DNA of 35,158 nucleotides, taken from contig JAUIHP010000036.1 of NCBI GenBank assembly GCA_030431975.1, positions 1 through 35,158 on the forward strand, written 5' to 3'. Below, in pieces: positions 2,499 through 35,158 of this stretch. The DNA comes from a bacterium (GTDB lineage: Bacteria; Eisenbacteria; RBG-16-71-46; CAIMUX01). The notes under the pieces are model-generated. The model worked only from the letters and a program-made list of their open reading frames with translations. It had not been told where the DNA came from and did not search any database. How positions within the stretch are numbered: the stretch's first letter is position 1; every line of letters starts with the position of its first letter. The translations under genes were made by a program, and so were the position numbers.

Positions 2499-5400
2499 CT
2501 ACCGAATGACGAGCACTTCCCGTTGCTTCGACGCGCCGCGGGACTCGAGCTGCAGGTAGTACCGTCCCGCGGCGACCTCGTTCCCTCCAGCGTCACGCCC
2601 GTCCCAAACCAGGTTGAACTCACCCGGTTCGACCTCATCGTGGAAGAGGGTGCGCAGACGCCGTCCGGCGACGTTGTAGAGACTCAGTTTCACTGTTCCC
2701 GATTCGGGAACCGCAAAGTTGATGGACACGGGGCCGGTCACCGGATTAGGCCGGGGCGCCGCCAGGTAGAGACTGGACGGGGCGGTTCTCGGACCGCCTT
2801 TTCCGGAGTCCTCCCAACGAACCGTTACCGATCCACTTTGGATGGCCACGTTGTCCGGGTTGCGCAACTCGAACTCTAGGCTTCCGTCCTGAACAGGTGA
2901 AGGGCCGTCGGCCGTCTGCACGAGCCGGAAAACGGCGAGATCTCCGGATCCTGAGACAGCGGGATTGCCCGGAGCGAGGCGGCTGATCCCGATTTCGTGG
3001 TAGTCCGGCCCGCTCACAGGGAGGGGGAGGACCTGTCCGTCACTTCCCCTCAGGAAGTCTTCCGCTTCGGCCTCGACAAAGGAAAAGTCGCCGGCGCCGA
3101 ACGAGAGCCGCAGCAGAGCGCCGGAGACGTTCGTCACGTCTTCCAGTCTGACCCGAACCTCCAGACCATTCGGTAGTTCATCAACGATCACGGAGACCGC
3201 GCTCGCCGATTTCGCCAAACGAGCCTGCCGTTCTTCTGCGACCAGGGAAGCCACGCCGGTCACGTCCGCGGCGGTGATCCGTGGCTCGTTCGAGGACAGA
3301 GAACCGGCGTCGAAGATCCGACCGGCGGAGTTCCAACCGGCATCCGCGAAGTAGGAGAACTGCGAAGTGAAGACGAGGATGTCGTCGACATTCCACTGCG
3401 CGTCGGGAACCGGCCACAGATTGGGACTGTCTTGCGTCGCCGGTCCCATGTCCGCGATCCGATCGCGAACGAAGTCGACACCGTTCCAACCCAAAGTGAA
3501 TGCCATCTGGTCGTCGAAGTCGATGCGCCCATCGGGTCGCGGTTGCAGCGCAGGAAGGGTGCCTTCTGTGCCGGTCCCGGTCGTGGCGATGTCGCCGAGA
3601 TAGGCGATGCGAATGTTGCAGTCGCGGGTCGTCCACGATTCCGGCTCGCCTCCGTCGACATCGACGATCTCGCACCGTGTGGCGTCAAGGGCGAGGGTTC
3701 CGTCCTTGAAACGTTCCGTGGCGGAGATTGCGTTGGCTCGGGCTCTCAGGCGAAGAATGGCAACATCGTAGGGGCCCGATCCGCTGAGGCCGGACGGTGC
3801 GTCCTGTGCCGTCGAACTGACCTGAAAGACCCCGGCAGTACTGTCGACGAAAGCGTTGAAGAGAACATCGGTGTAGCCCGTTCCGTCCCAAACGGTACCG
3901 CGAGTGATCCCAAGGATCTGAACCAGAGTCGGGTCGTACGTTCCGTGGAAGCCGACACCGATCACGCTGTCCGGATAGATCAATTCCAGTTTGACGTCCC
4001 GGACGAGACCATTCTGAAGATACAGAGTCTGATCTCCGTCGATGGCGTCGGTGAGTTGCAGTGCCGGGATCAGGTTCGGATCAATACAGATCCGGTTCGG
4101 TTCGATCGTTTCATCCCACGCGACTTCCGAGCCCGAGGCGTCCTTGAGGCGTGCGAACAGATGGTACTCGCCCGCGCCAGGGTTGCCGCCCGGTGTGGCG
4201 TCGAAGTCCCAGTAGGCCGACGTTGCCGTCGGCGCGACCGTTCCCGCAGCGATGGCCAGTTTCGCTGTCGAAGGATCGTAGGTCGCCTTGGTGTCGTAGT
4301 AGAAGTCGACCCAGCCGCCGAGCGGTGGGTACGTCGTCGTGAAACGGATCGGATAACCGCTGCTGGGTGGGAAACACGCAGGCAACGCGCTTTCGCCCGT
4401 GAAGAGAAGCGTGATCGTCGGCGTCGGACCTTCTTCGTACTTGGCGACGATGCTCCGACTCTCGTCAGCGACGTAGAGATCGAGATCACCACCGTTGTCA
4501 AGAAACGCGACCCCGACCGGAGTGACGAAGTTTCCGGCTTGGTTTCCGAGTTGCCCAATCGCCGCGTCGAAAACACCCACCGATGGGTCCGGCTGTGCTG
4601 CGTCCGGATCACGATAGATGACGACACGATGGTTTCCGGGGTCGCTTACGGCAACGTAGACCGTACCGTCACCGTCGACGGCGGCTTCCAGGTCCTGCGG
4701 ATAGGCGAGTTCGGGCGCTCCGGCTGTTTCGGCCTTCCAGGAGATGACCGATTCGACGAGATGCCCGCGTCCGAGCGTCGTGTCGGCAGGTGAGAAACCG
4801 ATCTTCTGGATGCGCCGGTTCGCGCTGTCCGAAACGTAGACGTCGAAGCGGCCCAAGGTCGAGTTCCACAAACCCGAAACACCGCGTGGGGAGGCGAAGC
4901 GGCCTGCACCGGTTCCGGAAGAGCCATATCGAACGAGGTCCGCAGATACGGCGTAGTCGAACTCGAAGTCGGTCGATGCCGGAGGCAGGGCTCCGTGGAT
5001 CGAGTCACCGAACCGAACCATGCCCGTCTCCCAGTTGACCTGAAAGACGGAGTCTTCGGGCGCTGCGGTCGTGATGTCATCGACCCGCTGCCAGATCGAA
5101 CCGGTTCCATCCGGGTCAAAAGTAATGGTTCGCAAGGAACCTTCGACCAGCGGAGCAGTCAGGGTCCAGGTCGTCCAGTCTTCCGGCACCGTCGAAGGGG
5201 TCATGGGGCGGTAGTCTTCATCGGCTGCCGCGCCGACGGTTCCCGCGCCCGTGGGCTGGACGACGACGCTTCGGGGATCCTCCGGCAACCAGTCACCCGA
5301 CCAGTTGCTTCCCGCCGCCGTCGTCCCGCTGGGCAGCCCGGCGATTTTCAATCGGTCATTGCCGGTGTCGGCGATGACGAGGAAACGTCCCGGATAGGCC

Positions 5401-6722
5401 GCGCTTGTGTGCACCGTGGTCGTTCCGTCGCCCCAAGGGCCTCCATTCAGCGCGAGACTGAGTCCCGGGATGCCCAGGAAGGGATCGGCGAAGGCGGCTT
5501 CCGCCGCGGCGTCAACAAGGACACGTCCCGTGGTCAGATCGGTGATCGTGACCACGCCGGTTGCGACCGTCACTTCATAGTCGTGTCCTGTCACCTGATT
5601 GGCATCGGTGACGAAGGGGTAGCCGGTCTTGTCGAACGGGCCCGTGTTGGCGTCGACCCAGGCGCTGGCTCCGGCTCCGGAGTCCAAGTCGAGGACGGTG
5701 GCGTCGTAGGGGCCGTTCAGTTCGTCCCCGTAGGCTTCGCCGACGGTGACGTTCCCGTCGAGATCGATGAAGTAGGAGAAGATCTGCTCGTGGGTCAAAG
5801 AGCTTTGGTCTGCTGCATCGACGACGAAGAGGTGGTCGACATCGCTGTCGGCGACGGAGGGAACGACGAAGATGCTCTTCACTTCCTCCCACGCGGTCGG
5901 GCCTCCCGACAACTCGTCGATCTGAACTTTGACCGGGGTGGTTCCGGCGTTGCGAACCCCGTAGTCGACGTCACCGATTCCGAAGACTTCCGTGCCTCCG
6001 CCGACGTCCTGAAGATTCGAAAGAACGTAGCGGACTTCGAGAACGCTCTCCGCGTCGAGGGAGCCCGCAGGGAACTCGAACTGAGGCTGGTCGGCCGTGG
6101 CCGCGAAGTCCACGGTGTAGACATAGTCGGTGGAGCTGTAGCCGGTCAGGCTCTCGACCCATCGCCAGGCGATTCCGTCGATGTAGACCGCTTCCGACAT
6201 CGGCACGATCCACTGCGTCGGGACGGCCTGGTACTCCGGCACCCGAAGAATCTGATCGCTGAACTCGCCGGCAACAGGGGCGCCGGCGGAATAGCTCAGG
6301 TCATCCTGGCTCAAAGTGGCGAAGGTCGCGTTGACCTCGAAGGCTTGGATGCGATTGTTTCCACTGTCGGCGACATAAACGACGTCCCTGCCGGTGTGGG
6401 AGCGAACCGCGATCGAGCGCGGTTGCTGAAAGGGGAGTTCGACGACGGGTGAGTCCGTTTCCAGAAGAACTCCCTGCGCCTGGAACGGAGCGAAGTAGGG
6501 ACCATTCCATTCGAGGACCGGTTCGTAGCGAAGATCGGCTTCCGAATCTGTAACGGCAATGGTGAGCAGAGCCGTTCCGAGCGCAAGCGCACGGGTTGCG
6601 ATTGCGCCTCGGGTTCGAGAGGAGCTCGGGGTGATCCCTCGCGGCTGATTGGGATCGTGGGCCAGTCCAATGTCTTGAAGGCGGGCCGACGTCCGATCCA
6701 TCGGAACGTGGTACGGGTGCAT
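2499..6722 (-). CDS. Giant exported NHL-propeller/cohesin-like protein with FlgD-type tail
   Basis: The protein has 1407 residues. I chose the ATG at 6722 because a strong GGGGGGAG site lies 7-8 nt upstream and an export signal follows (hydrophobic core about 43-57). The frame stays open to 7424 but that extension is low-complexity and unlike protein. The N-terminal two thirds hold at least five NHL-like propeller blades with motifs such as VYVADSGNNRIQ, IADTGNDRL, VYVSDSANRRIQ and SDPGNHRVVIY. Two cohesin-like beta domains follow (roughly 905-1060 and 1165-1315), with a dockerin-like stretch between them containing PDGRIDFDDQ and WNVDD. The last ~90 residues are a FlgD/T9SS-type domain starting at PRPNPVTG and ending REVLVIR. 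It is probably a surface or secreted adhesion or scaffold protein. The role is inferred; the domain calls are by motif only. Confidence 0.85.
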   Translation of the reverse strand: MHPYHVPMDRTSARLQDIGLAHDPNQPRGITPSSSRTRGAIATRALALGTALLTIAVTDSEADLRYEPVLEWNGPYFAPFQAQGVLLETDSPVVELPFQQPRSIAVRSHTGRDVVYVADSGNNRIQAFEVNATFATLSQDDLSYSAGAPVAGEFSDQILRVPEYQAVPTQWIVPMSEAVYIDGIAWRWVESLTGYSSTDYVYTVDFAATADQPQFEFPAGSLDAESVLEVRYVLSNLQDVGGGTEVFGIGDVDYGVRNAGTTPVKVQIDELSGGPTAWEEVKSIFVVPSVADSDVDHLFVVDAADQSSLTHEQIFSYFIDLDGNVTVGEAYGDELNGPYDATVLDLDSGAGASAWVDANTGPFDKTGYPFVTDANQVTGHDYEVTVATGVVTITDLTTGRVLVDAAAEAAFADPFLGIPGLSLALNGGPWGDGTTTVHTSAAYPGRFLVIADTGNDRLKIAGLPSGTTAAGSNWSGDWLPEDPRSVVVQPTGAGTVGAAADEDYRPMTPSTVPEDWTTWTLTAPLVEGSLRTITFDPDGTGSIWQRVDDITTAAPEDSVFQVNWETGMVRFGDSIHGALPPASTDFEFDYAVSADLVRYGSSGTGAGRFASPRGVSGLWNSTLGRFDVYVSDSANRRIQKIGFSPADTTLGRGHLVESVISWKAETAGAPELAYPQDLEAAVDGDGTVYVAVSDPGNHRVVIYRDPDAAQPDPSVGVFDAAIGQLGNQAGNFVTPVGVAFLDNGGDLDLYVADESRSIVAKYEEGPTPTITLLFTGESALPACFPPSSGYPIRFTTTYPPLGGWVDFYYDTKATYDPSTAKLAIAAGTVAPTATSAYWDFDATPGGNPGAGEYHLFARLKDASGSEVAWDETIEPNRICIDPNLIPALQLTDAIDGDQTLYLQNGLVRDVKLELIYPDSVIGVGFHGTYDPTLVQILGITRGTVWDGTGYTDVLFNAFVDSTAGVFQVSSTAQDAPSGLSGSGPYDVAILRLRARANAISATERFKDGTLALDATRCEIVDVDGGEPESWTTRDCNIRIAYLGDIATTGTGTEGTLPALQPRPDGRIDFDDQMAFTLGWNGVDFVRDRIADMGPATQDSPNLWPVPDAQWNVDDILVFTSQFSYFADAGWNSAGRIFDAGSLSSNEPRITAADVTGVASLVAEERQARLAKSASAVSVIVDELPNGLEVRVRLEDVTNVSGALLRLSFGAGDFSFVEAEAEDFLRGSDGQVLPLPVSGPDYHEIGISRLAPGNPAVSGSGDLAVFRLVQTADGPSPVQDGSLEFELRNPDNVAIQSGSVTVRWEDSGKGGPRTAPSSLYLAAPRPNPVTGPVSINFAVPESGTVKLSLYNVAGRRLRTLFHDEVEPGEFNLVWDGRDAGGNEVAAGRYYLQLESRGASKQREVLVIR

Positions 6723-7058
6723 TTCAGAACTCCCCCCGGAGATGTTTGCGATGTGGCGCCTCGAATGAGGTTTGACCGACAAACTCGTGCAGGTTTCGCG
6801 CCATCCGAGTGGGAAAGGATGGGGGTGGTCCCTAACGGCTTCCGCGACTGCGAGATGTTCGTGCAGTCGGTAGTCGCGCCATTTCGCGCGAGGGCGGAAA
6901 GTCGTGCAATTCGCCCGGCGCGACTTCTGGATGCACGCTGGCGCGGCTCGACCGCCCGAAGGCGGCACGAGTTTTCCACTGTGCGGAAGATGACACAGAC
7001 CGTTTCGTGGAACGCTCCGCGCTTTAAGGTGTTCACGTCTGACGCCGATTCCAGACGT
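6723..7058. other. Divergent intergenic region with inverted repeats
   Basis: No convincing gene is present between the giant minus-strand protein and the protease-like gene. Three inverted repeats are visible: GTTTG/CAAAC at 6770-6784, CGACTGC/GCAGTCG at 6845-6869, and CCGCC/GGCGG at 6952-6965. The region must hold at least the leader and promoter of the giant gene, but I see no clear -35/-10 pair on either strand. Confidence 0.5.
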
Positions 7059-7679
7059 ATGAACTGGGAAGCGGAAGATCTGAGAGACAGCCACTGGGCT
7101 CCGATTGCCGTCGTTGCTCTTGGGGATCCGACGCGCCGGGACGAAGGGCTTCCTCTTCGCGTCATCGGCCGTGTACGGACGCTGATCGGTGAGATCGGCT
7201 GCTCCCGGTCGTCCCTGGGCGCCGAGAACGAAGCCCTCGCGGCGAATGCACCCGCGGTGCAGGGTTCTCTGGCCTTGGATGTTCCGTCCTTCGGTGGCGA
7301 ACTCGTGCAATGGATCGAAGGCGGAGCCGAGACGGATCGGCTGGATCCGTGGCTTGAGGATCGCAGGCGTGTCGTCCTTCTCGATGCGGTCGACATGGGA
7401 CGCAAACCCGGGACCGTCGTCCATTGGAGTCTGTCACCGGGGCGTCATGGTCTGACGTACCTTCAGCACTACGGACGACCCGGAGAACTGGGCTTCGAAC
7501 ATCTGGCCTTCTGGCTCGAAGACGACCTGCCGCCTTCAGGGCTCGATCTCATCGCCGTACAACCGAGCGTGACCAGCGAGGGACTCGGCTTCTCCAACGC
7601 CATTGAACGTCGCTTCTCCACGATTTGCTCGCAGGTGACCGCTCTCGTCTTTCGAATCCTCGTCGAGGAAGGCTGGTAG
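7059..7679 (+). CDS. Hydrogenase maturation protease-like protein (HyaD/HycI family)
   Basis: The 206-residue product resembles the endopeptidases that trim the C-terminus of [NiFe]-hydrogenase large subunits after nickel insertion. The N-terminal VVALGDPTRRDEG matches the family's GxGNxxxxDEG element, with Glu29 at the nickel-binding glutamate position. VVLLDAVD supplies the central aspartate, and histidines follow in RHGLTYLQHYG. The C-terminal IAVQPSVTSEGLGFS also fits the family. No hydrogenase structural or accessory gene is present in the window, so the partner is elsewhere or the protein has a different job. The ATG at 7059 gives a family-like length, but its ribosome-binding site is weak. 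An ATG at 6990 is possible, and the frame stays open to 6657 without protein-like sequence. The reading frame is good; the exact start is uncertain. Confidence 0.7.
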   Translation: MNWEAEDLRDSHWAPIAVVALGDPTRRDEGLPLRVIGRVRTLIGEIGCSRSSLGAENEALAANAPAVQGSLALDVPSFGGELVQWIEGGAETDRLDPWLEDRRRVVLLDAVDMGRKPGTVVHWSLSPGRHGLTYLQHYGRPGELGFEHLAFWLEDDLPPSGLDLIAVQPSVTSEGLGFSNAIERRFSTICSQVTALVFRILVEEGW

Positions 7680-12614: not shown

Positions 12615-12800
12615 CTAGTTCGACTCCTTTGGCGAATCACTAAACGGGCCCAGCTGGATAGTCTGACAGGTCCTTCCGGCGGACTCAATAATATCGGCAG
12701 GAGCCACCAGCCCCTTGATGATGCTCCAGAGGTCGGGGAGCCGGCATGTGGCTCGGGAGCCGAGGGTGGTAGTCCGCAGTTGTCTCGGGAGCGGGGAGCC

Positions 12801-12900
12801 GGTAGTCGGCAGTTGGAAGTCGGAAGTCGGAAGTCGGAAGTCGGCAGTCGACAGTCGACAGTCGGAAGTCGGAAGTCCGCGGCGTCGGCAGTCGACAATC
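12801..12900. repeat. 7-bp tandem repeat array upstream of mutM-like gene
   Basis: Eleven contiguous heptamers (mostly GGAAGTC, with GGCAGTC and GACAGTC variants) occupy 12801-12877. After a 9-bp break, two more lie at 12887-12900. The array ends four bases before the ribosome-binding site of the gene at 12920. The 305-bp spacer 12615-12919 has no supported gene. The rest of it must carry the divergent promoters of the DUF4412-like and mutM-like genes, but no clear -35/-10 pair was found. Confidence 0.92.
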
Positions 12901-12919: not shown

Positions 12920-13723
12920 GTGCCTGAACTGGCGGAGGTCGAACGAAATCGCAGAGTTTGGTCGGACGGCCACAGCTCCAAAGTACGGGAAGTGTTCTTG
13001 CGAGGTGAGAAGCGCGTGTTTCGTGGCCTCGACGCCCGTCGCGTTCCAATCGAACTGACGGGACGTGTGCTTCGAGCGTCGGAGTCCCACGGTAAACAGA
13101 TGATGTTCTGCTTCGGAGGGCAGGTGTTCCTTGGTGTGCATCTCGGAATGACCGGTTCGTTGCGGACTGAGTCTCCGGACTACCGACCGGAGCGCCACGA
13201 TCACATTGTTCTCTTTCAGGCGAAGCGCGCTCTTGTCTTCAACGACCCCCGGCTCTTCGGACGGATTCTTTTCAGCGTCGGCGAGGCTCCGGAGTCGTGG
13301 CGCGATCGGGCTCCTGCTGTCCTCAGTGCGGAGTTCACGACGAGGTACGTCGGGTCTCACTTGAAGCGACGGGCGCGGTCTCCCCTCAAGGCGGTGTTGC
13401 TCGATCAGGCGATCTTTCCGGGTGTCGGGAACTGGATGGCCGACGAAATCCTTTGGCGCGCGGAGCTTCATCCGAGCCGTCCGGCGGGCGGTTTGACGCC
13501 CGAAGAACTACGCCGAATTCGGAAGGAGTCTCGTTGGGTCTGCCGGGAGGCGATCCGACGAATCGCGGATCGGGGTGTCGACCCTCCCAAGTCGTGGCTT
13601 TTCCCTCATCGTTGGAGCGACGGTGGGATTTGTCCCAGGACAGGAGCGGCCCTGGTTCGCGAGCCGATCGGCGGTCGTACAACGTGTTGGTCGCCTGGAA
13701 GACAGCCGATTCACTTCACTTGA
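12920..13723 (+). CDS. mutM: Formamidopyrimidine-DNA glycosylase-like protein with degenerate zinc finger
   Basis: The 267-residue protein belongs to the Fpg/Nei base-excision family, which removes oxidised bases and nicks the DNA backbone. It starts MPELAEVE, keeping the catalytic Pro2 and Glu3, and has Lys59 in ESHGKQMMF at the conserved lysine position. HLGMTGSL, FNDPRLFGRI and the helix-two-turn-helix FPGVGNWMADEILWRAELHP are all present. The C-terminal finger is abnormal: of the four zinc cysteines, only the first in ICPRTG is clearly kept. The second is replaced by Thr, and the last pair reads as SPGR rather than CPxC. The enzyme may use a zincless finger, as in NEIL1 or plant FPG, or may have weaker activity. 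The GTG start has an AGAGGAGTGAG site. The gene overlaps the convergent sirtuin gene by 13 bp. Confidence 0.82.
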   Translation: MPELAEVERNRRVWSDGHSSKVREVFLRGEKRVFRGLDARRVPIELTGRVLRASESHGKQMMFCFGGQVFLGVHLGMTGSLRTESPDYRPERHDHIVLFQAKRALVFNDPRLFGRILFSVGEAPESWRDRAPAVLSAEFTTRYVGSHLKRRARSPLKAVLLDQAIFPGVGNWMADEILWRAELHPSRPAGGLTPEELRRIRKESRWVCREAIRRIADRGVDPPKSWLFPHRWSDGGICPRTGAALVREPIGGRTTCWSPGRQPIHFT

Positions 13724-14430
13724 CGCGCCCACCACTGTGGCAGCGCTTCGGCGGCGGGCCCTCGAACGGACTCGTGTACGAATGGGGTGAGTGGCGTGTC
13801 CTCGATGTTGAACTCGACAACGTGGGCTCCGCGTCGCAGCGCTGTTTCGGGCAAGGCAGCAGCAGGGTATACAAGAGAAGAGGTGCCGACGACAAGTACG
13901 GTGCCCGCACCCTCCGCAGCGTCCACACTGCGACGTAGCGTTCCGGCGTTCAGGCTTTCGCCGAACCAGACCACGCCGGGCCGAAGCGTGCCCTTGCAAC
14001 TTCGGCAAGTCGGAGGAAGTCGTTTGAGCGGGGCCGATCGATCCACGCCCGACCACCCACACTTGATGCACTGCACTTCCCAAATGGAGCCGTGTATACG
14101 TTCCATGCGCTCCGAACCCGCCAGCTCGTGCAAGCCGTCCACGTTTTGTGTCACCAACAAGAACGAGTCGGGGTCTTCATCCGCCACGTGGGACTCGATC
14201 TCGACGATCGATCGATGGGCTGCGTTCGGCGTGCACTTGGCGATTTCACGGCGACGCCAGTCGTACCACTCCCAGACGAGCTTCGGATCCGCGGCAAACG
14301 CTTCCGGAGTCGCCAGTTCCTCGGCGCGATAGTTTCTCCACAATCCGTCGACGCCCCGGAAGGTGGGGACGCCGCTTTCGGCGGAGATTCCGGCGCCGGT
14401 AAGCACAAGTAGGGGGAGTCGAAGGCTCAT
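13711..14430 (-). CDS. cobB: Class III sirtuin, NAD-dependent protein deacylase (CobB/SIRT5 type)
   Basis: The 239-residue enzyme removes acyl groups from lysines using NAD+. Motifs in order are TGAGISAESGVPTFRG (NAD binding, 11-26), WYDWRR with Tyr56 and Arg59, TQNVDGLH, catalytic His113 in RIHGS, four zinc cysteines (CIKC and CRSC), and VVGTSSLVYPAA. The YxxR pair is the known signature of sirtuins that prefer succinyl- or malonyl-lysine over acetyl-lysine. The ribosome-binding site is weak. The gene ends inside the last codons of the convergent mutM-like gene and is divergent from the ATP synthase operon. It may correct acyl-lysine damage produced by acyl-CoA metabolism; that link is an inference from the neighbouring cassette. 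Confidence 0.92.
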   Translation of the reverse strand: MSLRLPLLVLTGAGISAESGVPTFRGVDGLWRNYRAEELATPEAFAADPKLVWEWYDWRRREIAKCTPNAAHRSIVEIESHVADEDPDSFLLVTQNVDGLHELAGSERMERIHGSIWEVQCIKCGWSGVDRSAPLKRLPPTCRSCKGTLRPGVVWFGESLNAGTLRRSVDAAEGAGTVLVVGTSSLVYPAAALPETALRRGAHVVEFNIEDTPLTPFVHESVRGPAAEALPQWWARQVK

Positions 14431-14921: not shown

Positions 14922-15161
14922 GTGTCCGAAAGTCCAGAAGAGCGAGCCCAAAGGATGCGGGTCGTCGGTGCCTTGGCGGGTATTCCGACGACCATGGCTG
15001 CGGGTGCGGTCGTTGGATTCCTGATCGGACGATGGCTGGACGGCCGCTTCGGCACGGATCCCTGGCTCCAACTGATTTTCTTGTTTCTGGGTTTCGCCGC
15101 TTCGATTCGAAGTGCCCGACGCCTGATGAAGCGAGCAGCGGAAGAGACGGACAAACTCTGA
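14922..15161 (+). CDS. atpZ: AtpZ/AtpI-type small membrane protein
   Basis: The 79-residue protein has two membrane helices (about 14-36 and 46-63) with the AtpZ-like glycine-rich GAVVGFLIGRWLDGRFGTDPW between them; I split that motif as GFLIGRWLD and GTDPW for reference. AtpZ and AtpI proteins are small companions of F1Fo ATP synthases that help assemble the c-ring or import magnesium or calcium. It is the first gene of the atp operon. The start is a GTG with a weak GGGTG site; no ATG is available. The next gene starts 34 bp later. Confidence 0.82.
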   Translation: MSESPEERAQRMRVVGALAGIPTTMAAGAVVGFLIGRWLDGRFGTDPWLQLIFLFLGFAASIRSARRLMKRAAEETDKL

Positions 15162-15195: not shown

Positions 15196-16818
15196 GTGGA
15201 CACACACTCGAAGAGTTTCGATCTCGCCTTCCTGGGACGGGTTCGGAACGCCACGATTCTGCTCGGCATCTTCGGCTCACTCTTCGTGTTCTCCTTCGTC
15301 GGGACGCAATCTGGTCTCGGCTGGTGCGCCGGCGCTGCGGTCTCCCTCGTAAACTTCGTTCTCCTGCAGTGGATTCTCACTCGCATCTTCCGTCCGCAAC
15401 CGATGCTCGGTCCGATCGTGGCCTTGGCCTTTCTCGTCAAGATTCCACTGCTTCTTGTTTCGGTCTGGCTTTCCGTCGGTGTCTTCGGGCTTCCCGTTCT
15501 TTGGTTTTCTCTGGGCTTCTTCCTCCTCTTCGCCGTCATCATTCTGAAGACACTGGGACGGCTCCTCGTCCAACGGAGCGGACTGCAAGTGTCCGACCCG
15601 CGAAACGGTGCTGCTTTCCGTATGGGTACTCGCGGAGCCTCGGGGGACAACGATTCGGGGGATAAGGGGACGCCCTCGCCTGGAAGTCGCCTGGACTCGA
15701 ACGGCGACTCGACGAAGTCCGGACTCGGCAAGGCGAGCCTGAAGGCGCCGGGACTGAAAACGTCCCTGGGAGCTCTTCTCCTCTTCTTCCTGCTTGGGCT
15801 TGGTTGGCCGCTTCTTCCGACCCTCACCGCCGAACGCCCCGACTCCCAGTGGACGACGACAATCGATCTCGAGACCGTTCACGGTGTGGCTCTGGCCCAG
15901 ACCGGTCATGACGACCACAGCCATGACGGCGACGACCACTCTCACGACGACCACTCCGGTCACGATCACGACGCTGCTCATGGCGGGGACGCGCACGGGG
16001 ATCACGGTGACGGCCACGGCGATCATGGCGCCCACGACGACCACGGTCCGGTCAAACACTTTCCGCACCTGCTCAACTACGTCGAGTGGGTTCTGGAGAA
16101 AGTCGGCGCACCGACGTCCTGGATGGCCCCGATCTTCAAATACGAGAATGCTTTCTTCTCGATCCTGGTCGGACTGCTTCTCGGTGGCGCCGCTGCGGTG
16201 GCGTCCTCCCGCCGCGAAATGATTCCAGGTCGACTTCAGGCCGCCGTCGAACTTGCCGTCGAAACGTTCTACAACTTCATTCGCGGGATCCTCGGTGAGC
16301 ATACGCGCACGTATCTGCCGTTTCTCGGGACCCTCTTCTTCTACATCTGGGGCATGAACTGGCTGGGGCTCATCCCGGGTGGAAAGTCCCCGACGGCCTA
16401 TCTCAACACGACGCTCACGCTCGCCGTGATTGTCTTTCTCGTCGTACAGATCACCGGTCTCATTCGTCTGGGGCCCGGCGGCTGGCTTCATCACCTTGCC
16501 GGCAGCCCGAAGGACCCGGTCGGTTGGGCTCTCGTACCGCTGATGCTCCCCTTGGAGTTGGTCGGTGAGATCGCAAAACCGGTTTCGCTCTCGTTGCGCC
16601 TTTTCGGAAACATCATGGGTGAGGACACTCTGCTGGCCCTCTTCGCCGTCCTACTCACGATTTCCGTCCCAGCGCTCGGCGCCGTCGGTGTTCCGTTGCA
16701 TGTTCCGTTCATTTTCCTGGCCTTGCTGGCGAGTTCGATCCAAGCCCTGGTGTTTACGCTGCTGGCGACGATCTACATTTCGCAGATGCTGCCTCACGGT
16801 CACGAAGAGGAGCACTAG
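15196..16818 (+). CDS. atpB: AtpI-AtpB fusion: assembly domain joined to ATP synthase subunit a
   Basis: One 540-residue frame joins two proteins that are normally separate. Residues about 18-125 form four membrane helices like ATP synthase subunit I (AtpI). A polar linker (126-188) and a fifth hydrophobic helix (190-210) follow. Residues 238-291 hold 17 histidines among Asp and Gly. Residues about 292-540 are subunit a, with the essential Arg468 in KPVSLSLRLFGN and the C-terminal helices that face the c-ring. Subunit a carries protons across the membrane. In some FCB bacteria subunit a has a signal peptide plus a His-rich segment, which matches 190-291; here AtpI is added in front. The start is GTG at 15196, after GGGGAGGG. 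No stop or good internal start separates the halves (the ATG near residue 143 lacks a ribosome-binding site), but internal translation or processing cannot be excluded. Confidence 0.88.
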   Translation: MDTHSKSFDLAFLGRVRNATILLGIFGSLFVFSFVGTQSGLGWCAGAAVSLVNFVLLQWILTRIFRPQPMLGPIVALAFLVKIPLLLVSVWLSVGVFGLPVLWFSLGFFLLFAVIILKTLGRLLVQRSGLQVSDPRNGAAFRMGTRGASGDNDSGDKGTPSPGSRLDSNGDSTKSGLGKASLKAPGLKTSLGALLLFFLLGLGWPLLPTLTAERPDSQWTTTIDLETVHGVALAQTGHDDHSHDGDDHSHDDHSGHDHDAAHGGDAHGDHGDGHGDHGAHDDHGPVKHFPHLLNYVEWVLEKVGAPTSWMAPIFKYENAFFSILVGLLLGGAAAVASSRREMIPGRLQAAVELAVETFYNFIRGILGEHTRTYLPFLGTLFFYIWGMNWLGLIPGGKSPTAYLNTTLTLAVIVFLVVQITGLIRLGPGGWLHHLAGSPKDPVGWALVPLMLPLELVGEIAKPVSLSLRLFGNIMGEDTLLALFAVLLTISVPALGAVGVPLHVPFIFLALLASSIQALVFTLLATIYISQMLPHGHEEEH

Positions 16819-16993: not shown

Positions 16994-17221
16994 ATGGAGA
17001 TGAATCTTCTGGGAATCGGTCTTCCGGTTGGCCTGGGTCTCGCCGCCCTCGGATCGGGTATCGGTCTTGGAAACGCGGTCAGTTCCGCCATGAGCGCCAT
17101 GGCCCGTCAGCCGGAAGCGATCGGTAAGATCCAGACCAACATGATCATCGGTCTCGCGTTCATCGAGGCTCTGACCATCTACGCGTTCGTTACCGTCTTC
17201 ATTCTTCAGGGCAAGCTCTAG
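16994..17221 (+). CDS. atpE: ATP synthase subunit c
   Basis: The 75-residue hairpin protein forms the rotating c-ring in the membrane. The first helix has the glycine-rich GLGLAALGSGIGLGNA, the polar loop is ARQPEAIGKIQ, and the second helix carries the ion-binding Glu58 in LAFIEALTIYAF. The sodium signature (a Gln in helix one and Ser or Thr after the Glu) is missing: Leu and Ala stand there. The ring therefore most likely carries protons. The ATG has a strong AGAAGGAG site, and a hairpin-rich leader separates it from atpB. Confidence 0.97.
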   Translation: MEMNLLGIGLPVGLGLAALGSGIGLGNAVSSAMSAMARQPEAIGKIQTNMIIGLAFIEALTIYAFVTVFILQGKL

Positions 17222-17301
17222 ATCAGTCTTTCCGGAAGGAATGAGCACTCGCTCCGCGGCCGAATGGTCGCGGCGGTAGGTGTTTGAGACGGGGGTAAAG
17301 G

Positions 17302-17802
17302 ATGCATCAACTCGATCTCGGACAAATCATCTCGCAGGTCGTGGGTTTCGGCATCGTTCTGCTCATTTTGCGGCAGTTCGCATGGGGACCGATTCTCGCG
17401 CTGCTCGATGAACGTCGCGACAAGATCAAGGGTGAGTTCGATGAGATCGAAAACCAGCGCCAGTCGGTGACGGCCGACCGGGCCCAGCTGGACGAGCGTT
17501 TGAGCGGAATCGAGCAGGAGGCCCGGGAGAAGATCCAGGCCGGCGTCGCCGAAGGCGAGAAAGTCGGTAACGAGATCAAGACCAAGGCCCGGCAGGAAGC
17601 GCAAGGCATTCTCCAACGCGCCGAGGAACAGGTGCAGCGGGATCGCGAGAAGGCCCAGGTGGCCCTTCGCAACGAGACCGTCTCGATGGTTCTCGCAGCG
17701 ACGGAGAAGTTGCTCCAGGAAAAGCTCGATCCGGAAGCGCACAAGGGACGGGTCGAGTCCTTCATCGACTCGCTGGACAAAGTTCAGGGAGCTAAGTCGT
17801 GA
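17302..17802 (+). CDS. atpF: ATP synthase subunit b
   Basis: The 166-residue protein is the peripheral stalk of Fo. One N-terminal membrane helix (about 7-25, IISQVVGFGIVLLILRQF) is followed by WGPILALLDERRDKI and a long charged coiled coil (about 36-140) that reaches up to subunit delta. The length is normal. Its stop overlaps the next start by 4 nt (GTGA), coupling b and delta translation. The 80-bp gap after atpE has a small CCGCG/CGCGG inverted repeat. Confidence 0.95.
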   Translation: MHQLDLGQIISQVVGFGIVLLILRQFAWGPILALLDERRDKIKGEFDEIENQRQSVTADRAQLDERLSGIEQEAREKIQAGVAEGEKVGNEIKTKARQEAQGILQRAEEQVQRDREKAQVALRNETVSMVLAATEKLLQEKLDPEAHKGRVESFIDSLDKVQGAKS

Positions 17803-18359
17803 TTCGCGATCGCGGAGTAGCCAATCGCTATGCCAATGCGCTCTTCGGCGCAGCGGAGTCGCGTGGAGCTTCTGAGGCCGTTCTGGCCGACCTCGAGTCT
17901 CTCGCTGAGCTCGAAGAGAAGGGCACTGCGTCTCTGCAGAACTTTCTCGAGTCGCCGTCGGTCGTCGAGAAACGGAAGGAAGAGGTCGTCGACAAAGTCC
18001 TGAAGGGCAAAGCCGATCCTCTGACCGTTCACCTCGTCGATCTGATGTTGCGGAAGAAGCGTATTCAGCACCTGCCTTTGGTGCTGGCTCCGTTTCGGAG
18101 GCTCGTCGAAGCCAAGCTCGGCACCGAGCGTGCAGAAGTGCAGAGTGCGGTACCACTGGACGCGTCGCAAATCGAGCGACTGCGCGCCGGTCTGGCCCGG
18201 GTTACGGGCAAGAAGATCAAGATCGTAACGGAAATCAACCCGGCAATCCTGGGTGGCGTCGTCGTGACGGTCGGGGGACAGATCCTCGACTCCAGTCTGC
18301 GAACGCGGCTGGCTACGATGCGTGAGCAACTTCTTGCCACGCGTGTGGTCGGGCGGTAA
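17799..18359 (+). CDS. atpH: ATP synthase subunit delta
   Basis: The 186-residue protein links the peripheral stalk to the top of F1. It has the family-like N-terminus [16 protein letters not shown], a helical domain of about 110 residues, and the C-terminal signature [22 protein letters not shown], which I note as [11 protein letters not shown] plus [10 protein letters not shown]. The GTG start overlaps the atpF stop. The length is typical (about 180). Confidence 0.95.
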
Positions 18360-18370
18360 GGGAGAACGGC

Positions 18371-19885
18371 ATGGCCTTCAAGCCTGAGGAAGTGAGCTCG
18401 ATCCTCCAGCAGGAACTCGAGCGGTTCGACACCAGTTTGGAGATGAAAGAGGTCGGCTCCGTCCTCATGGTGGGTGATGGTATCGCCCGCGTGTGGGGTC
18501 TGGAGAACTGCATGTCCGGCGAGCTCCTCAAGTTTCCCAACGACGTCATGGGAATGGTTCTCAACCTGGAAGAGGACAACGTCGGCGCCGTTCTTTTCGG
18601 CTCTACCGAGCTGGTCAAGGAAGGCGACCCGGTTCACCTGACCGGACGCGTTGCTCAGGTTCCGGTAGGTCCGGCCATGCTTGGCCGTGTCGTCAATCCG
18701 CTCGGTGAGCCGATCGACGGCAAGGGTCCCATCGTGACCGACCACTACTATCCGATCGAAGGTAGCGTGCCCAACGTCGTGCAGCGCCAGCCGGTGACCG
18801 AGCCGGTTCAGACGGGAATCAAGGCCATTGACGCCATGATCCCGATCGGGCGCGGACAACGCGAGCTCATCATTGGTGACCGCCAGACCGGAAAGACCGC
18901 AGTCGCCATCGATGCCATCATCAACCAAAAGGGCAAGGACCTGATCTGCGTCTACGTTGCGGTCGGTCAGAAGGAATCGACCGTCGCCCGAGTCGTGCAG
19001 ACCCTGGCCGATCACGGCGCCATGGAATACACCATCGTCGTTTCGGCCTCGGCTTCCGACCCTGCACCGCTGCAGTACCTGGCTCCCTACGCCGGTTGCT
19101 CGATGGGCGAATGGTTCCGCGACAACAGCAAGCATGCGCTTTGCGTTTACGATGACCTTTCCAAGCAGGCGGTGGCCTACCGCGAGTTGTCCCTCCTGCT
19201 CCGCCGCCCGCCGGGTCGTGAGGCCTATCCGGGAGACGTGTTCTACCTCCACAGCCGTCTGCTGGAGCGTGCGGCCAAGCTCAGTGATGAAATGGGAGGG
19301 GGCAGCCTCACGGCGTTGCCGATCATCGAGACGCAGGCCGGTGACGTTTCCGCCTATATCCCGACGAACGTGATCTCGATTACGGACGGGCAGATCTTCC
19401 TCGAAACGGACCTCTTCTACTCGGGTGTGCGTCCGGCCATCAATGCCGGTATCTCCGTCAGTCGAGTCGGTGGTAACGCCCAGACCAAGGCTATGAAGTC
19501 GGTCGCCGGTAAGCTTCGTCTCGACTTGGCCCAGTACCGCGAACTCGCGGCGTTTGCGCAGTTCGGTTCCGACCTCGATGCCGCCACACAGGCGCAGCTG
19601 ACTCGTGGTGAGCGCATGGTTGAAGTACTGAAGCAGGGCCAGTACGCGCCGATGGAAGTCCAGGATCAGGTCATGTTCATTTTCGCGGGTTCCAATGGTT
19701 ACCTCGACAAACTTCCGGTCGACGCCATCGGAAAGTTCGAGAAGGAATTCCTGGTCTTCATGTCAGAGGAGTACCCGGACGTCGGCCACTCCATCCGCAA
19801 CGAAGGCAAGATGACCGAAGAGACGCAGAACAAGTTGCACAAAGCCCTTCAGTCCTTCGTCGACCGATTCAAGAAGAGCCTGTAA
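18371..19885 (+). CDS. atpA: ATP synthase subunit alpha
   Basis: The 504-residue F1 subunit binds nucleotide at noncatalytic sites. The P-loop is GDRQTGKT at residues 169-176. Other family blocks are [36 protein letters not shown] (listed as [18 protein letters not shown]), [20 protein letters not shown], and [14 protein letters not shown]. The ATG has a GGGAGAACGG site 11 nt after atpH. Length and motif order are standard, and I see no anomaly. Confidence 0.98.
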
Positions 19886-19935
19886 GTCCCGGGATCTGAT
19901 CCCACTTCTCTGACCAATGCTCTGAAAGGAAACCT

Positions 19936-20790
19936 GTGTCGACTCTGAAACAACTGCGGCGGCGAATCCGCTCGATCAAGAACACGCAGCAGATCACCAA
20001 AGCCATGGAGATGGTGGCGGCGGCAAAACTGCGGCGTGCGCAGAATCGGGCTTTGGCTTCGCGTCCCTACTCTGAGAAGACGACAGAGATGCTCCAGAGC
20101 CTCGCGGCCGCTGCGAGTTCGCTCACGCATCCGCTTTTCGAACAGAGAGACGTCGAGAATCGCTCTCTCGGGATCATCGCGTCGGACAAGGGGCTGTGCG
20201 GATCGTTCAATATGAACGTGTTCCGTCACGTGGAGCGCAGTTTTCCGGCCTCCGAACGCTCCGACATCTCGCTGTATCCCATTGGCCGGCGAGCCAACAT
20301 GTATTTCGGCAAGCGCGACTGGACGATCGGCGGGGGCGTGGAACTCCTCGGTGATCAGATTCAGTTCCAGCTCGCCAAGGAAATGGCGTCCGAATTCACC
20401 CGCGCGTTTACCGCGGGGGAGACGGACAAGGTCCAACTCGTCTATACCAAGTTCCGCACCGTAGCATCCAGGGAGGTGGTGATTGAGGACTTGCTCCCGA
20501 TCGTCCCCAGGGAGGATGCGGAAGGTGCGGGCGGTGACTACATTTTCGAACCGAGCCCGGAGAAGATCTTTGACACGCTTCTCCCTCGGTACGTCATGAA
20601 TCGTGTGCTTCAAGCGATGGCCGAGTCGATTGCTTCCGAACACGCCGCCCGAATGCTGGCCATGGGCGCGGCGACGAAGAATGCGAAGGAAGTCCTGGAC
20701 AACTTGACGCTGACCGCGAACCGGCTGCGGCAGGCGGCGATCACCAAGGAAATCCTCGACATCGTCGGAGGCGCAGAGGCTCTGAAGTAG
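19936..20790 (+). CDS. atpG: ATP synthase subunit gamma
   Basis: The 284-residue central rotor shaft starts with the family signature LRRRIRSIKNTQQITKAMEM (split here between LRRRIRS and KNTQQITKAMEMVAAAKL) and has SDKGLCGSFN in the middle. It ends with SEHAARMLAMGAATKNAKE and the C-terminal helix that sits inside the alpha-beta ring. The start is GTG after AAAGGAAA. The 160-bp gap before atpD has a CGTCATC/GATGACG hairpin at about 20815-20835 and a TTGACA with no matching -10 box. Confidence 0.97.
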   Translation: MSTLKQLRRRIRSIKNTQQITKAMEMVAAAKLRRAQNRALASRPYSEKTTEMLQSLAAAASSLTHPLFEQRDVENRSLGIIASDKGLCGSFNMNVFRHVERSFPASERSDISLYPIGRRANMYFGKRDWTIGGGVELLGDQIQFQLAKEMASEFTRAFTAGETDKVQLVYTKFRTVASREVVIEDLLPIVPREDAEGAGGDYIFEPSPEKIFDTLLPRYVMNRVLQAMAESIASEHAARMLAMGAATKNAKEVLDNLTLTANRLRQAAITKEILDIVGGAEALK

Positions 20791-20887
20791 GCCTCCGGTT
20801 GTTTGACACAGGGACGTCATCGGGGCGCGATGACGACACCCGGACGCGCTGCCCGCGAGCGTGAAGTTTTCTGAAACGAACGCGTGA

Positions 20888-22366
<1,479 letters not shown>

Positions 22367-22459
22367 GCAGCCAAGGAAGAGGGGAGCGGAGCCGCCGGCG
22401 AATCGTCGCGCTAGGTCTTCACTCCCTCGACCGCAATCTCGAAGGCAGGACGCTCGCTC

Positions 22460-22861
22460 ATGGCCACGTTCCATCTGTCCGTCATTACCCCGACCAAGAC
22501 GTTGCTCGACAAGGAAGTGGCGTCGATCATCGTGCCGGGTGTCGAGGGATACCTCGGTGTGATGGCAAATCACGCTCCGCTGATTGCGGCCCTCGGTCCG
22601 GGAGTTTTTTCCGTCCGGGACGAGCCCAACGGTGACGCTGTCGAGTACCTTCTGGGTGGCGGTTTCCTCGAGGTCTCGAACAACAAAGCCATTCTGCTCG
22701 CCGACTCGATGGAGATGGCCGGCGAGGTTGACGTAGAGAGAGCACGGGCTTCGGAGGATCGCGCCAAAAAGCGGCTCGCCGAGGGTTCGTCGCAGTGGGA
22801 CATTCCGCGGGCCGAGGACTCGTTGGCTCGGGCACAGAATCGCCTCAAGCACTCTCGTTAG
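22460..22861 (+). CDS. atpC: ATP synthase subunit epsilon
   Basis: The 133-residue protein sits on the rotor base and inhibits ATP hydrolysis. The N-terminal beta domain has VITPTKTLLDKEV, IIVPGVEGYLGVMANHAPLIAAL (listed as VEGYLGVMANHAPL) and GGGFLEVSNN. The C-terminal helical hairpin (about 88-130) follows. It is the last atp gene; no clear terminator follows it. The ribosome-binding site (AAGGCAGG) is weak and distant. Confidence 0.96.
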   Translation: MATFHLSVITPTKTLLDKEVASIIVPGVEGYLGVMANHAPLIAALGPGVFSVRDEPNGDAVEYLLGGGFLEVSNNKAILLADSMEMAGEVDVERARASEDRAKKRLAEGSSQWDIPRAEDSLARAQNRLKHSR

Positions 22862-32313: not shown

Positions 32314-32958
32314 CTACCGCTGCAGAACGATCTTTGTGTGATCAGAGAAGCTTCCGGAAACAAGACGGGCGAAGTAGACGCCGGAAGCGACTCGGTCTCC
32401 CCGATCCGATCTGCCGTCCCAAATCAATTCGTGAGCTCCGGCGTCGATGTCCCCTTTGTAGAGCACCCGAATCCGTCGACCCGCGGCGTCGAACACTTCG
32501 ACCGACGTGTCCGCGGAACTCGCCAGACGAAAACGTACGGTCGTCGACGACTGGAAGGGATTCGGGAAACTGCTGTTAAGGACGTTGAAGAGTTCTGCCG
32601 GTTGAGTGTCGACATCTGCGGGGTCCGGTGATCCGAGCTTCTTCTTGGCGATGAAGCCCGGATGAAGGACGAAGTTTCCACCGGTTGCCTCCAGCGGTCG
32701 TGCGATGGCTTCGCCGAGCGAGGTCAGGCTCCGGAAGTTGCCCCCCGAGATCTGCCTTCCCGACGAATTGATGACGCTGTTCTCGAGCACGATACTATCG
32801 GCCAAGGACGCCGTGGCCAGGATAGCAACCGATAGACTTGCGCCGAGTAGCAGCCACCTTTGTCGCAGCGTCCGGCTGCCCGTCGAACGGTAGCCGGCGT
32901 GGCTGCGAGGTGAGGTCGCCCTCGTAGTGGCGGAGTGGGGTGTGTCCCGGTTTGTCAT
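32314..32958 (-). CDS. Small secreted protein with FlgD-type tail
   Basis: The 214-residue protein has a hydrophobic export segment (about 35-54, WLLLGASLSVAILATASLAD) after a polar n-region. A short region, about 60-105, reads ISGGNFRSLTSLGEAIARP then GGNFVLHPGFIAKKKL. This SLG-then-GF pattern is common in proteins that carry the same sorting-type tail. The last ~85 residues (SFPNPFQSSTTVRF to TKIVLQR) form a FlgD/T9SS-like domain. The ATG at 32958 is 10 nt after the stop of the collagen-like gene, so the two form an operon; an upstream frame reaches 33075 but overlaps that gene. It may be a surface partner or adaptor for the collagen-like protein. That is inferred only from the operon. Confidence 0.78.
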   Translation of the reverse strand: MTNRDTPHSATTRATSPRSHAGYRSTGSRTLRQRWLLLGASLSVAILATASLADSIVLENSVINSSGRQISGGNFRSLTSLGEAIARPLEATGGNFVLHPGFIAKKKLGSPDPADVDTQPAELFNVLNSSFPNPFQSSTTVRFRLASSADTSVEVFDAAGRRIRVLYKGDIDAGAHELIWDGRSDRGDRVASGVYFARLVSGSFSDHTKIVLQR

Positions 32959-32968
32959 CGTTCTGCCT

Positions 32969-35158
32969 CTACTGCAGTGTGACCAGCACTCGGATGACTC
33001 CGAGTCCCCGATCCAGCGAACCCAAAGCCTTGCCGATGACCGTTCCCGTCTTGGGATCATCCGCGCGCATTGCATGGCCCGGTGTCGACGAGGTGACCAA
33101 CAGGTCGCCTGGGCGGATCGGTCCGTTCTTCGCCGTGACCTTGCACGGAACGATTCCGACGACTGCCATCGGGATCTCTCCGAAACGAGCCGCCATGTCG
33201 TTGAGCGTCAGCGCTGAACTCTCTCCGTCGACTTCTTCATCCCAGTCGCGCTCGGAACCGACGAAGCCAGGCTCCGTGCTGAAGATTCCGGCGACCAGGG
33301 TCGAATGGGCTGTCGTTGACTTGACGACCGACCGCGGGTTGTTTGGATCGATAACCAGAACGTCGCCGGCTTCGACGGTGGCTGCTCCGGAGCTGACTCG
33401 AATCATCTCCGCGAAGTCGGCCGGGCCGGTGTAGCTCCCGTCCGCGAAAACGTTACCGTCCGCGTTGACACGGAACTTGGTGTCGTTGGTGTCCCACTGT
33501 AACTCGAGGAACTGGGCGGTCGCCTGCGATGTGCTCGGTATGTTGAGCTCCACAAGGTCCGATCCCGGCAGAAGAGCGTTTGTACATTCGATCAGATTTC
33601 CCGCTCCCGCAGCGAATGCGTGAGTCGAGTAGAACGCGCGCGTGACGGGATTTGTACCCACTGCGTAGACACCAGCCTGGGTGTGCCCCAAAGCGCCGAT
33701 GAGTCCGTTCGTGGATTCACCATAGACGGCGGCGTCGGTGCCGCCGATGTAGCCGGACCGGCCGCTGGATCCGGTTCCGTGGAGTGCAAATCCTCCCGCC
33801 AACGTGTTCTCCGAGCGGAGTCCGAAGGCCAGGGCCGATGTCAGATCGAACCGGGTGTCCGCGGCCACACTTCCCGTTCCGAGGGCGAGGTTGGTTCCGT
33901 TGTTGAGGAACGTACTCGTCCCGACCCAGCCGGCACCATCATATCGGGCCGTCTGATCGAGGATGCCGCCCGTGATACCGGGAGGACCGGTCGGTCCGGT
34001 AGTTCCTGCAGGTCCGGTTGGACCGGCGGTGCCCGTCGGTCCGGTAGTACCTGCGGGGCCTGTCGGTCCCTGTGTCCCTGTCGGACCCGAATCACCCTGA
34101 GGCCCAACGGGGCCGGTAGTGCCTGCGGGTCCGGTTACTCCGGTCGGTCCCTGGGCGCCGGTCGGGCCTGCGTCACCTTGTGGTCCAGCGGGTCCAGTTG
34201 CGCCTGCGGGTCCAGTGGTTCCGGTCGGGCCTTGTGCACCGGTGGGTCCTGCGTCGCCTTGTGGTCCAGCAGGTCCAGTTGCGCCAGCAGGTCCGGTCGG
34301 TCCCTGCGCACCGGTGGGTCCAGCGTCGCCTTGCGGTCCAGCAGGTCCAGTTGCGCCGGCGGGTCCGGTCGCTCCGGTCGGGCCTTGGGCACCGGTGGGC
34401 CCTGCGTCGCCTTGCGGTCCAGCAGGTCCGGTTGCGCCTGCGGGTCCAGTGGTTCCGGTCGGGCCTTGGGCACCGGTGGGCCCTGCGTCGCCTTGCGGTC
34501 CAGCAGGTCCAGTTGCGCCAGCAGGTCCCGTGGCTCCGGTCGGTCCCTGTGCGCCGGTGGGTCCTGCGTCACCCTGCGGCCCGGCAGGTCCGGTTGCGCC
34601 TACGGGGCCGGTCGTCCCGGTCGGGCCTTGTGCGCCGGTGGGTCCTGCGTCGCCTTGCGGTCCAGCAGGTCCAGTTGCGCCGGCGGGTCCAGTGGTTCCG
34701 GTCGGGCCTTGGGCACCGGTGGGCCCTGCGTCGCCTTGCGGTCCAGCGGGTCCGGTTGCGCCTGCGGGGCCGGTCGGTCCCTGTGCGCCGGTGGGTCCTG
34801 CGTCACCTTGTGGTCCAGCAGGTCCGGTTGCGCCTGCGGGTCCAGTGGTTCCGGTCGGGCCTTGTGCGCCGGTGGGTCCTGCGTCGCCCTGTGGTCCGGC
34901 GGGTCCAGTTGCGCCAGCAGGTCCGGTCGTTCCGGTCGGTCCCTGAGCCCCGGTGGGCCCTGCGTCGCCTTGCGGTCCAGCGGGTCCGGTTGCGCCGGCG
35001 GGTCCAGTGTCTCCGGTCGGGCCTTGGGCACCGGTGGGTCCTGCGTCGCCTTGTGGTCCAGCGGGGCCAGTTGCGCCTTCGGGGCCGGTTGCTCCGGTCG
35101 GCCCTTGGGCACCGGTGGGTCCTGCGTCGCCTTGCGGTCCAGCGGGTCCGGTTGCGCC
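32969..35158 (-). CDS. Collagen-like protein with tail-fibre-like C-terminal domain, 5'-truncated
   Basis: The frame is continuously open on the minus strand from the window edge to the stop at 32969, giving 729 visible residues. About 130 Gly-X-Y triplets, rich in [12 protein letters not shown] and GDA, fill the region encoded by about 33977-35158. The non-repetitive C-terminal part (about 335 residues) follows, with [18 protein letters not shown], a Gly/Ala-rich beta region and [20 protein letters not shown]. Its end has [32 protein letters not shown] and a [14 protein letters not shown] segment, like conserved C-terminal domains of tail-fibre-like proteins. No ATG occurs in the triplet region, so the start lies outside the window. 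The protein probably trimerises into a surface fibre. It heads a two-gene operon with the small FlgD-tailed protein. Confidence 0.88.
34110..35158. repeat. 81-bp higher-order tandem repeats coding for Gly-X-Y triplets
   Basis: Thirteen copies of an approximately 81-bp unit (nine Gly-X-Y triplets) are visible, spotted by the recurring GCGTCGCC or GCGTCACC near each unit. Two spacings are 72 bp, exactly one triplet shorter. Copies differ mainly at synonymous positions. The array runs past the window end. Confidence 0.9.

Follow-up and report, generated by a model that had tools for sequence, protein, structure and literature searches.

The atp operon and its fused gene

We found that the window, the whole stretch of 35,158 nucleotides analyzed here from a 6.19 Mb genome of the phylum Candidatus Eisenbacteria, contains a complete atp operon on the plus strand, in the order atpZ, a fused atpI-atpB gene, atpE, atpF, atpH, atpA, atpG, atpD and atpC. 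The small gene atpZ (14922-15161), which precedes atpI, matches the Pfam ATPase_gene1 profile (PF09527) with E 1.6e-16, and the genes from atpE to atpC (16994-22861) were read from their translations. Between them lies a single frame (15196-16818) that opens with a GTG preceded at 5 nt by GGAGG, is free of stops up to its terminal codon at 16816-16818 and encodes a chain of 540 amino acids. This chain begins with an AtpI domain of four helices and ends with a complete subunit a; between them come a polar linker, a short fifth helix and a histidine-rich stretch, in that order.

Several other features mark the window. A Sir2-family deacylase gene (13711-14430, minus strand; E 6e-47) lies just upstream of the atp operon, and eleven copies of the 7-base repeat CGGAAGT (12800-12877) adjoin a formamidopyrimidine-DNA glycosylase gene. 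Two minus-strand genes (2499-7424 and 32314-33075) end in a FlgD Ig-like domain, and in the second a secretion sorting tail was also matched, weakly and below the cut-off. An array that runs from 34121 to 35158, the end of the window, consists of around 13 repeats of 81 bases each (84% matches). It lies inside a long minus-strand frame (32969-35158), which may encode a collagen-like Gly-x-y protein, judging from its pattern of G+C-rich triplets.

The AtpI domain and the subunit a core

The AtpI domain spans residues 1-127 (15196-15576), with transmembrane helices at residues 10-35, 40-65, 72-97 and 101-127. Its match to the ATP-synt_I profile (PF03899) at residues 21-109 is weak: the isolated domain scores 22.0 bits, just short of the 25.1 cut-off. 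The same profile is matched at E 0.01 or better by 26 of 30 aligned homologues, and the domain itself matches the separate AtpI proteins of relatives with split genes (E 1.6e-9 in G028 and 1.5e-9 in G005), so that the assignment is firmer through these relatives than through its own Pfam score. AlphaFold returned four confident helices, mostly with pLDDT over 90, and searches of PDB sequences and folds found no relative of the domain among solved structures. Both the four transmembrane helices and the position just before atpB in the operon are traits of the AtpI family. The signature residues of that family, namely an N-terminal Arg, a Gly and an Asn in helix 2, a Gly in helix 4 and a Lys after helix 4, are largely kept in the fusions, which argues that the domain is not merely a decayed leader; across the wider fused group, Gly often stands in for the Lys of helix 3, which the window's protein retains. 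In one genome (G011, locus L120), around 45 extra residues break the AtpI domain of the fused gene between its two halves. In other bacteria, AtpI is an assembly helper of the c-ring (PMC4154653, PMC8904574), and by analogy we predict the same function for the fused domain.

The subunit a core (residues 292-540; 16069-16815) is unambiguous: residues 320-529 match the ATP-synt_A profile (PF00119) with E 3e-55, AlphaFold models this part confidently, the core has relatives among solved structures, and Arg468, in an LRLFGN motif, is invariant across 31 sequences. Three genomes contain a second, divergent subunit a gene elsewhere that lacks AtpI (L154 in G007, L155 in G002 and L156 in G020).

Distribution of the fusion across Candidatus Eisenbacteria

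We surveyed 47 genomes of the phylum, scoring as fused those with AtpI and AtpB in one stop-free frame. The state could be decided in 39 of these, the other eight comprising four with a contig end at the gene and four without a subunit a match. Of the decidable genomes, 28 are fused, and these are independent assemblies from species that have diverged; the other 11 are split. The state is constant within each family: the fused families are f1 (that of the window, with three genera), f5, f7 and f10, and separate atpI and atpB genes are found in f2, f3, f4, f9 and f11. All three genomes of the window's own family are fused. The atpZ gene is found upstream in 26 of the 28 fused and 9 of the 11 split genomes, the upstream sequence being short in the remaining four.

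An earlier note on this DNA had read AtpI and subunit a in a single frame and proposed looking for the same fusion in related genomes; with 28 of 39 fused, the frame proves to be one gene with no hidden stop that is kept in relatives. The window's genome was found to have one AtpI and one AtpB and no second copy of either. No second AtpI was found in the other fused genomes except G040, where it lies on another contig, in an assembly with 5% estimated contamination. An assembly or sequencing error hiding a stop or frameshift between two genes might be entertained for a draft genome, the more so as a single stop or frame change is all that splits some relatives. However, the same fused frame recurs in 28 genomes of four families in a family-consistent pattern, and this conservation rules out such an error, to which we assign practically no weight.

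A tree of AtpI and AtpB requires at least four changes between the fused and split states, one of them in Omnitrophota, yet grouping the fused Eisenbacteria in one clade is not rejected (AU p 0.128). In the Omnitrophota genome (L012, 3464-4762), a single frame likewise encodes AtpI and AtpB, with no His-rich tail, and its closest neighbors in the tree have split genes. We found no report of an AtpI-subunit a fusion in the literature searched, which left out most subscription journals. The fusion is real, conserved and undescribed in the papers searched, a new arrangement of known parts.

The linker, the fifth helix and the His-rich tail

Between the two conserved domains lie three further elements. 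The polar linker (residues 128-189; 15577-15762) is predicted to be cytoplasmic and disordered, with low pLDDT, and is net positive before the fifth helix. AlphaFold places this short helix at residues 190-206 (15763-15813), followed by disorder through the histidine region. The His-rich stretch occupies residues 238-291 (15907-16068), where an exact count bears out the 17 histidines in 54 residues given in the earlier note. In most genomes with split genes, AtpB starts with positive charge, a hydrophobic stretch, a small-x-Ala site and a tail of variable length that is often His-rich; in the split families f9 and f11, the tails are short and the signals weaker. In the fusions, these elements recur in that order between the two conserved domains, and for this reason the fifth helix is best read as the core of the former signal peptide of AtpB, now internal. 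Similarly, His-rich tails occur at the N-terminus of split AtpB proteins in the same phylum and on subunit a of other phyla (e.g., L009 and L016). The stretch, which had been taken as part of the joint between the two proteins, is hence best read not as a fusion linker but as subunit a's own tail, predicted to be periplasmic. In 27 of the 28 fused proteins, the charge before the fifth helix exceeds that after it, as expected if the tail is exported. The metal-binding or pH-sensing patch that the earlier note suggested would be one possible role for this tail.

Fate of the fused chain

The single frame ensures that AtpI and subunit a are synthesized 1:1, as the earlier note had supposed; its further proposal, a lasting covalent link, is doubtful, given a fifth helix resembling a signal peptide and, in most relatives, a signal-peptidase-like site after it; in this genome the sites are weak, leaving room for such a link. 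Within around 20 residues after the fifth helix, the motif [AVSTGIL]xA[QEDS] is present in 21 of the 28 fused proteins compared to 13.4 in shuffled sequences, and xAQ in 11 of 28 compared to 3.2; both the motif and the region were picked after viewing the sequences, and these figures are accordingly descriptive. In the 22 residues that follow this region, the 28 fused proteins show no enrichment of the motif. Plain AxA after the helix is not enriched over shuffled sequence either, a test made uninformative by the Ala-rich tails. The xA/Q form is credible as a site since substrates of signal peptidase I in Bacteroidetes typically have Gln after the cut (PMC5837995); according to that paper, the rule does not hold across the FCB group as a whole.

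The traits of signal peptidase I substrates (a charged n-region, a hydrophobic core and small residues at -3 and -1 near the core) are found in most fused relatives and are atypical in the window's protein; no clear cleavage site was found in G011. Two candidate sites are present in the window's protein. TLTA/E (A212/E213; 15820-15834) lies at a good distance from the helix but has Leu at -3, which is uncommon. VALA/Q (A234/Q235; 15886-15900) fits the motif of the group but is 27 residues from the helix. We compared these sites with 38 exported proteins, a rough sample drawn from around 400 kb of the window's genome, in which position -3 is mostly Ala or Val, distances are mostly short and Gln at +1 is absent. 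The genome contains a signal peptidase I gene. Judged from these motifs, processing by signal peptidase I is somewhat probable for the fused group, and for the window's own protein the chances are about equal either way.

If the chain remained uncut, AtpI would stay on subunit a in the mature ATP synthase, as a fixed stator-side part beside the c-ring, and the fifth helix would be an ordinary membrane anchor. The single frame with the sole AtpI of the genome, a topology that also works uncut, the atypical cleavage sites of the window's protein and the retained AtpI residues all speak for such a tether. Nevertheless, the correspondence of the fifth helix to the signal peptide of split relatives and the enrichment of cleavage-like motifs after it across the group speak against it, making it a minority option that we consider rather unlikely. 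Should the window's family in particular be uncut, which is likewise possible but doubtful, AtpI would belong to the mature enzyme permanently and in fixed stoichiometry, sitting where subunit a meets the c-ring, and a His-rich patch would lie on the periplasmic side where protons enter.

Subunit a could alternatively be made alone as well, mostly AtpI-free, from a start in the linker. The candidates are a GTG at 15589 with GGAG at 10 nt and an ATG at 15622 with a weak ribosome site. Across the group, however, a start with even a four-base ribosome site is found in only 6 of 27 fused genomes, and about half of the fused genomes have no ATG at all in the linker region. This count rules out internal initiation as a conserved feature, and the reading as such is quite improbable.

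The atpI-atpB fusion is a true one, and we modestly favor the reading that the export signal of subunit a has become internal in it, giving a joint precursor that is probably cut in most relatives; this is more likely than a permanent 1:1 tether. AtpI would insert as four helices with both its N- and C-terminal ends in the cytoplasm, where the linker would also stay. The fifth helix, the former signal peptide, would then export the His-rich tail to the periplasm, with subunit a inserting in its usual orientation. AtpI and subunit a would thus arise together, in equal numbers and in one place. Signal peptidase I would probably cut just after the fifth helix in most relatives, to release a five-helix AtpI and, as mature subunit a, a chain whose periplasmic tail is free.

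Comparison with known systems and implications

The N-terminal half resembles AtpI/UncI (PF03899) in its four-helix domain, signature residues and place between atpZ and atpB, but AtpI is normally a separate small protein and here forms part of the subunit a gene. Likewise, the C-terminal half is an F-type subunit a (AtpB, PF00119), with a complete core that includes the essential Arg, and the atp operon around it is complete; the difference lies in what is added at the N-terminus, namely AtpI, a former signal peptide that is now internal, and a His-rich tail. Yeast Atp6 is a subunit a precursor with a removable leader that is cut by Atp23 (PMC8877559). The fused protein would similarly be a precursor of subunit a that loses its N-terminal part, except that here signal peptidase I would do the cutting and an entire assembly helper would be cut off. 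Ice worm ATP6 is described as having a His-rich C-terminal extension, which reportedly increases ATP synthesis on transfer to E. coli (PMC12796488). Both are cases of subunit a with a His-rich extension, C-terminal there and N-terminal and predicted to be periplasmic here.

The place of AtpI in the ATP synthase is poorly known. Its natural fusion suggests that AtpI works beside subunit a in a 1:1 ratio, and makes this idea testable. If cleavage takes place, a subunit of a bacterial ATP synthase would come from a precursor shared with its assembly helper. With fused and split sister families in one phylum, Candidatus Eisenbacteria offers a natural experiment on the effect of this link.
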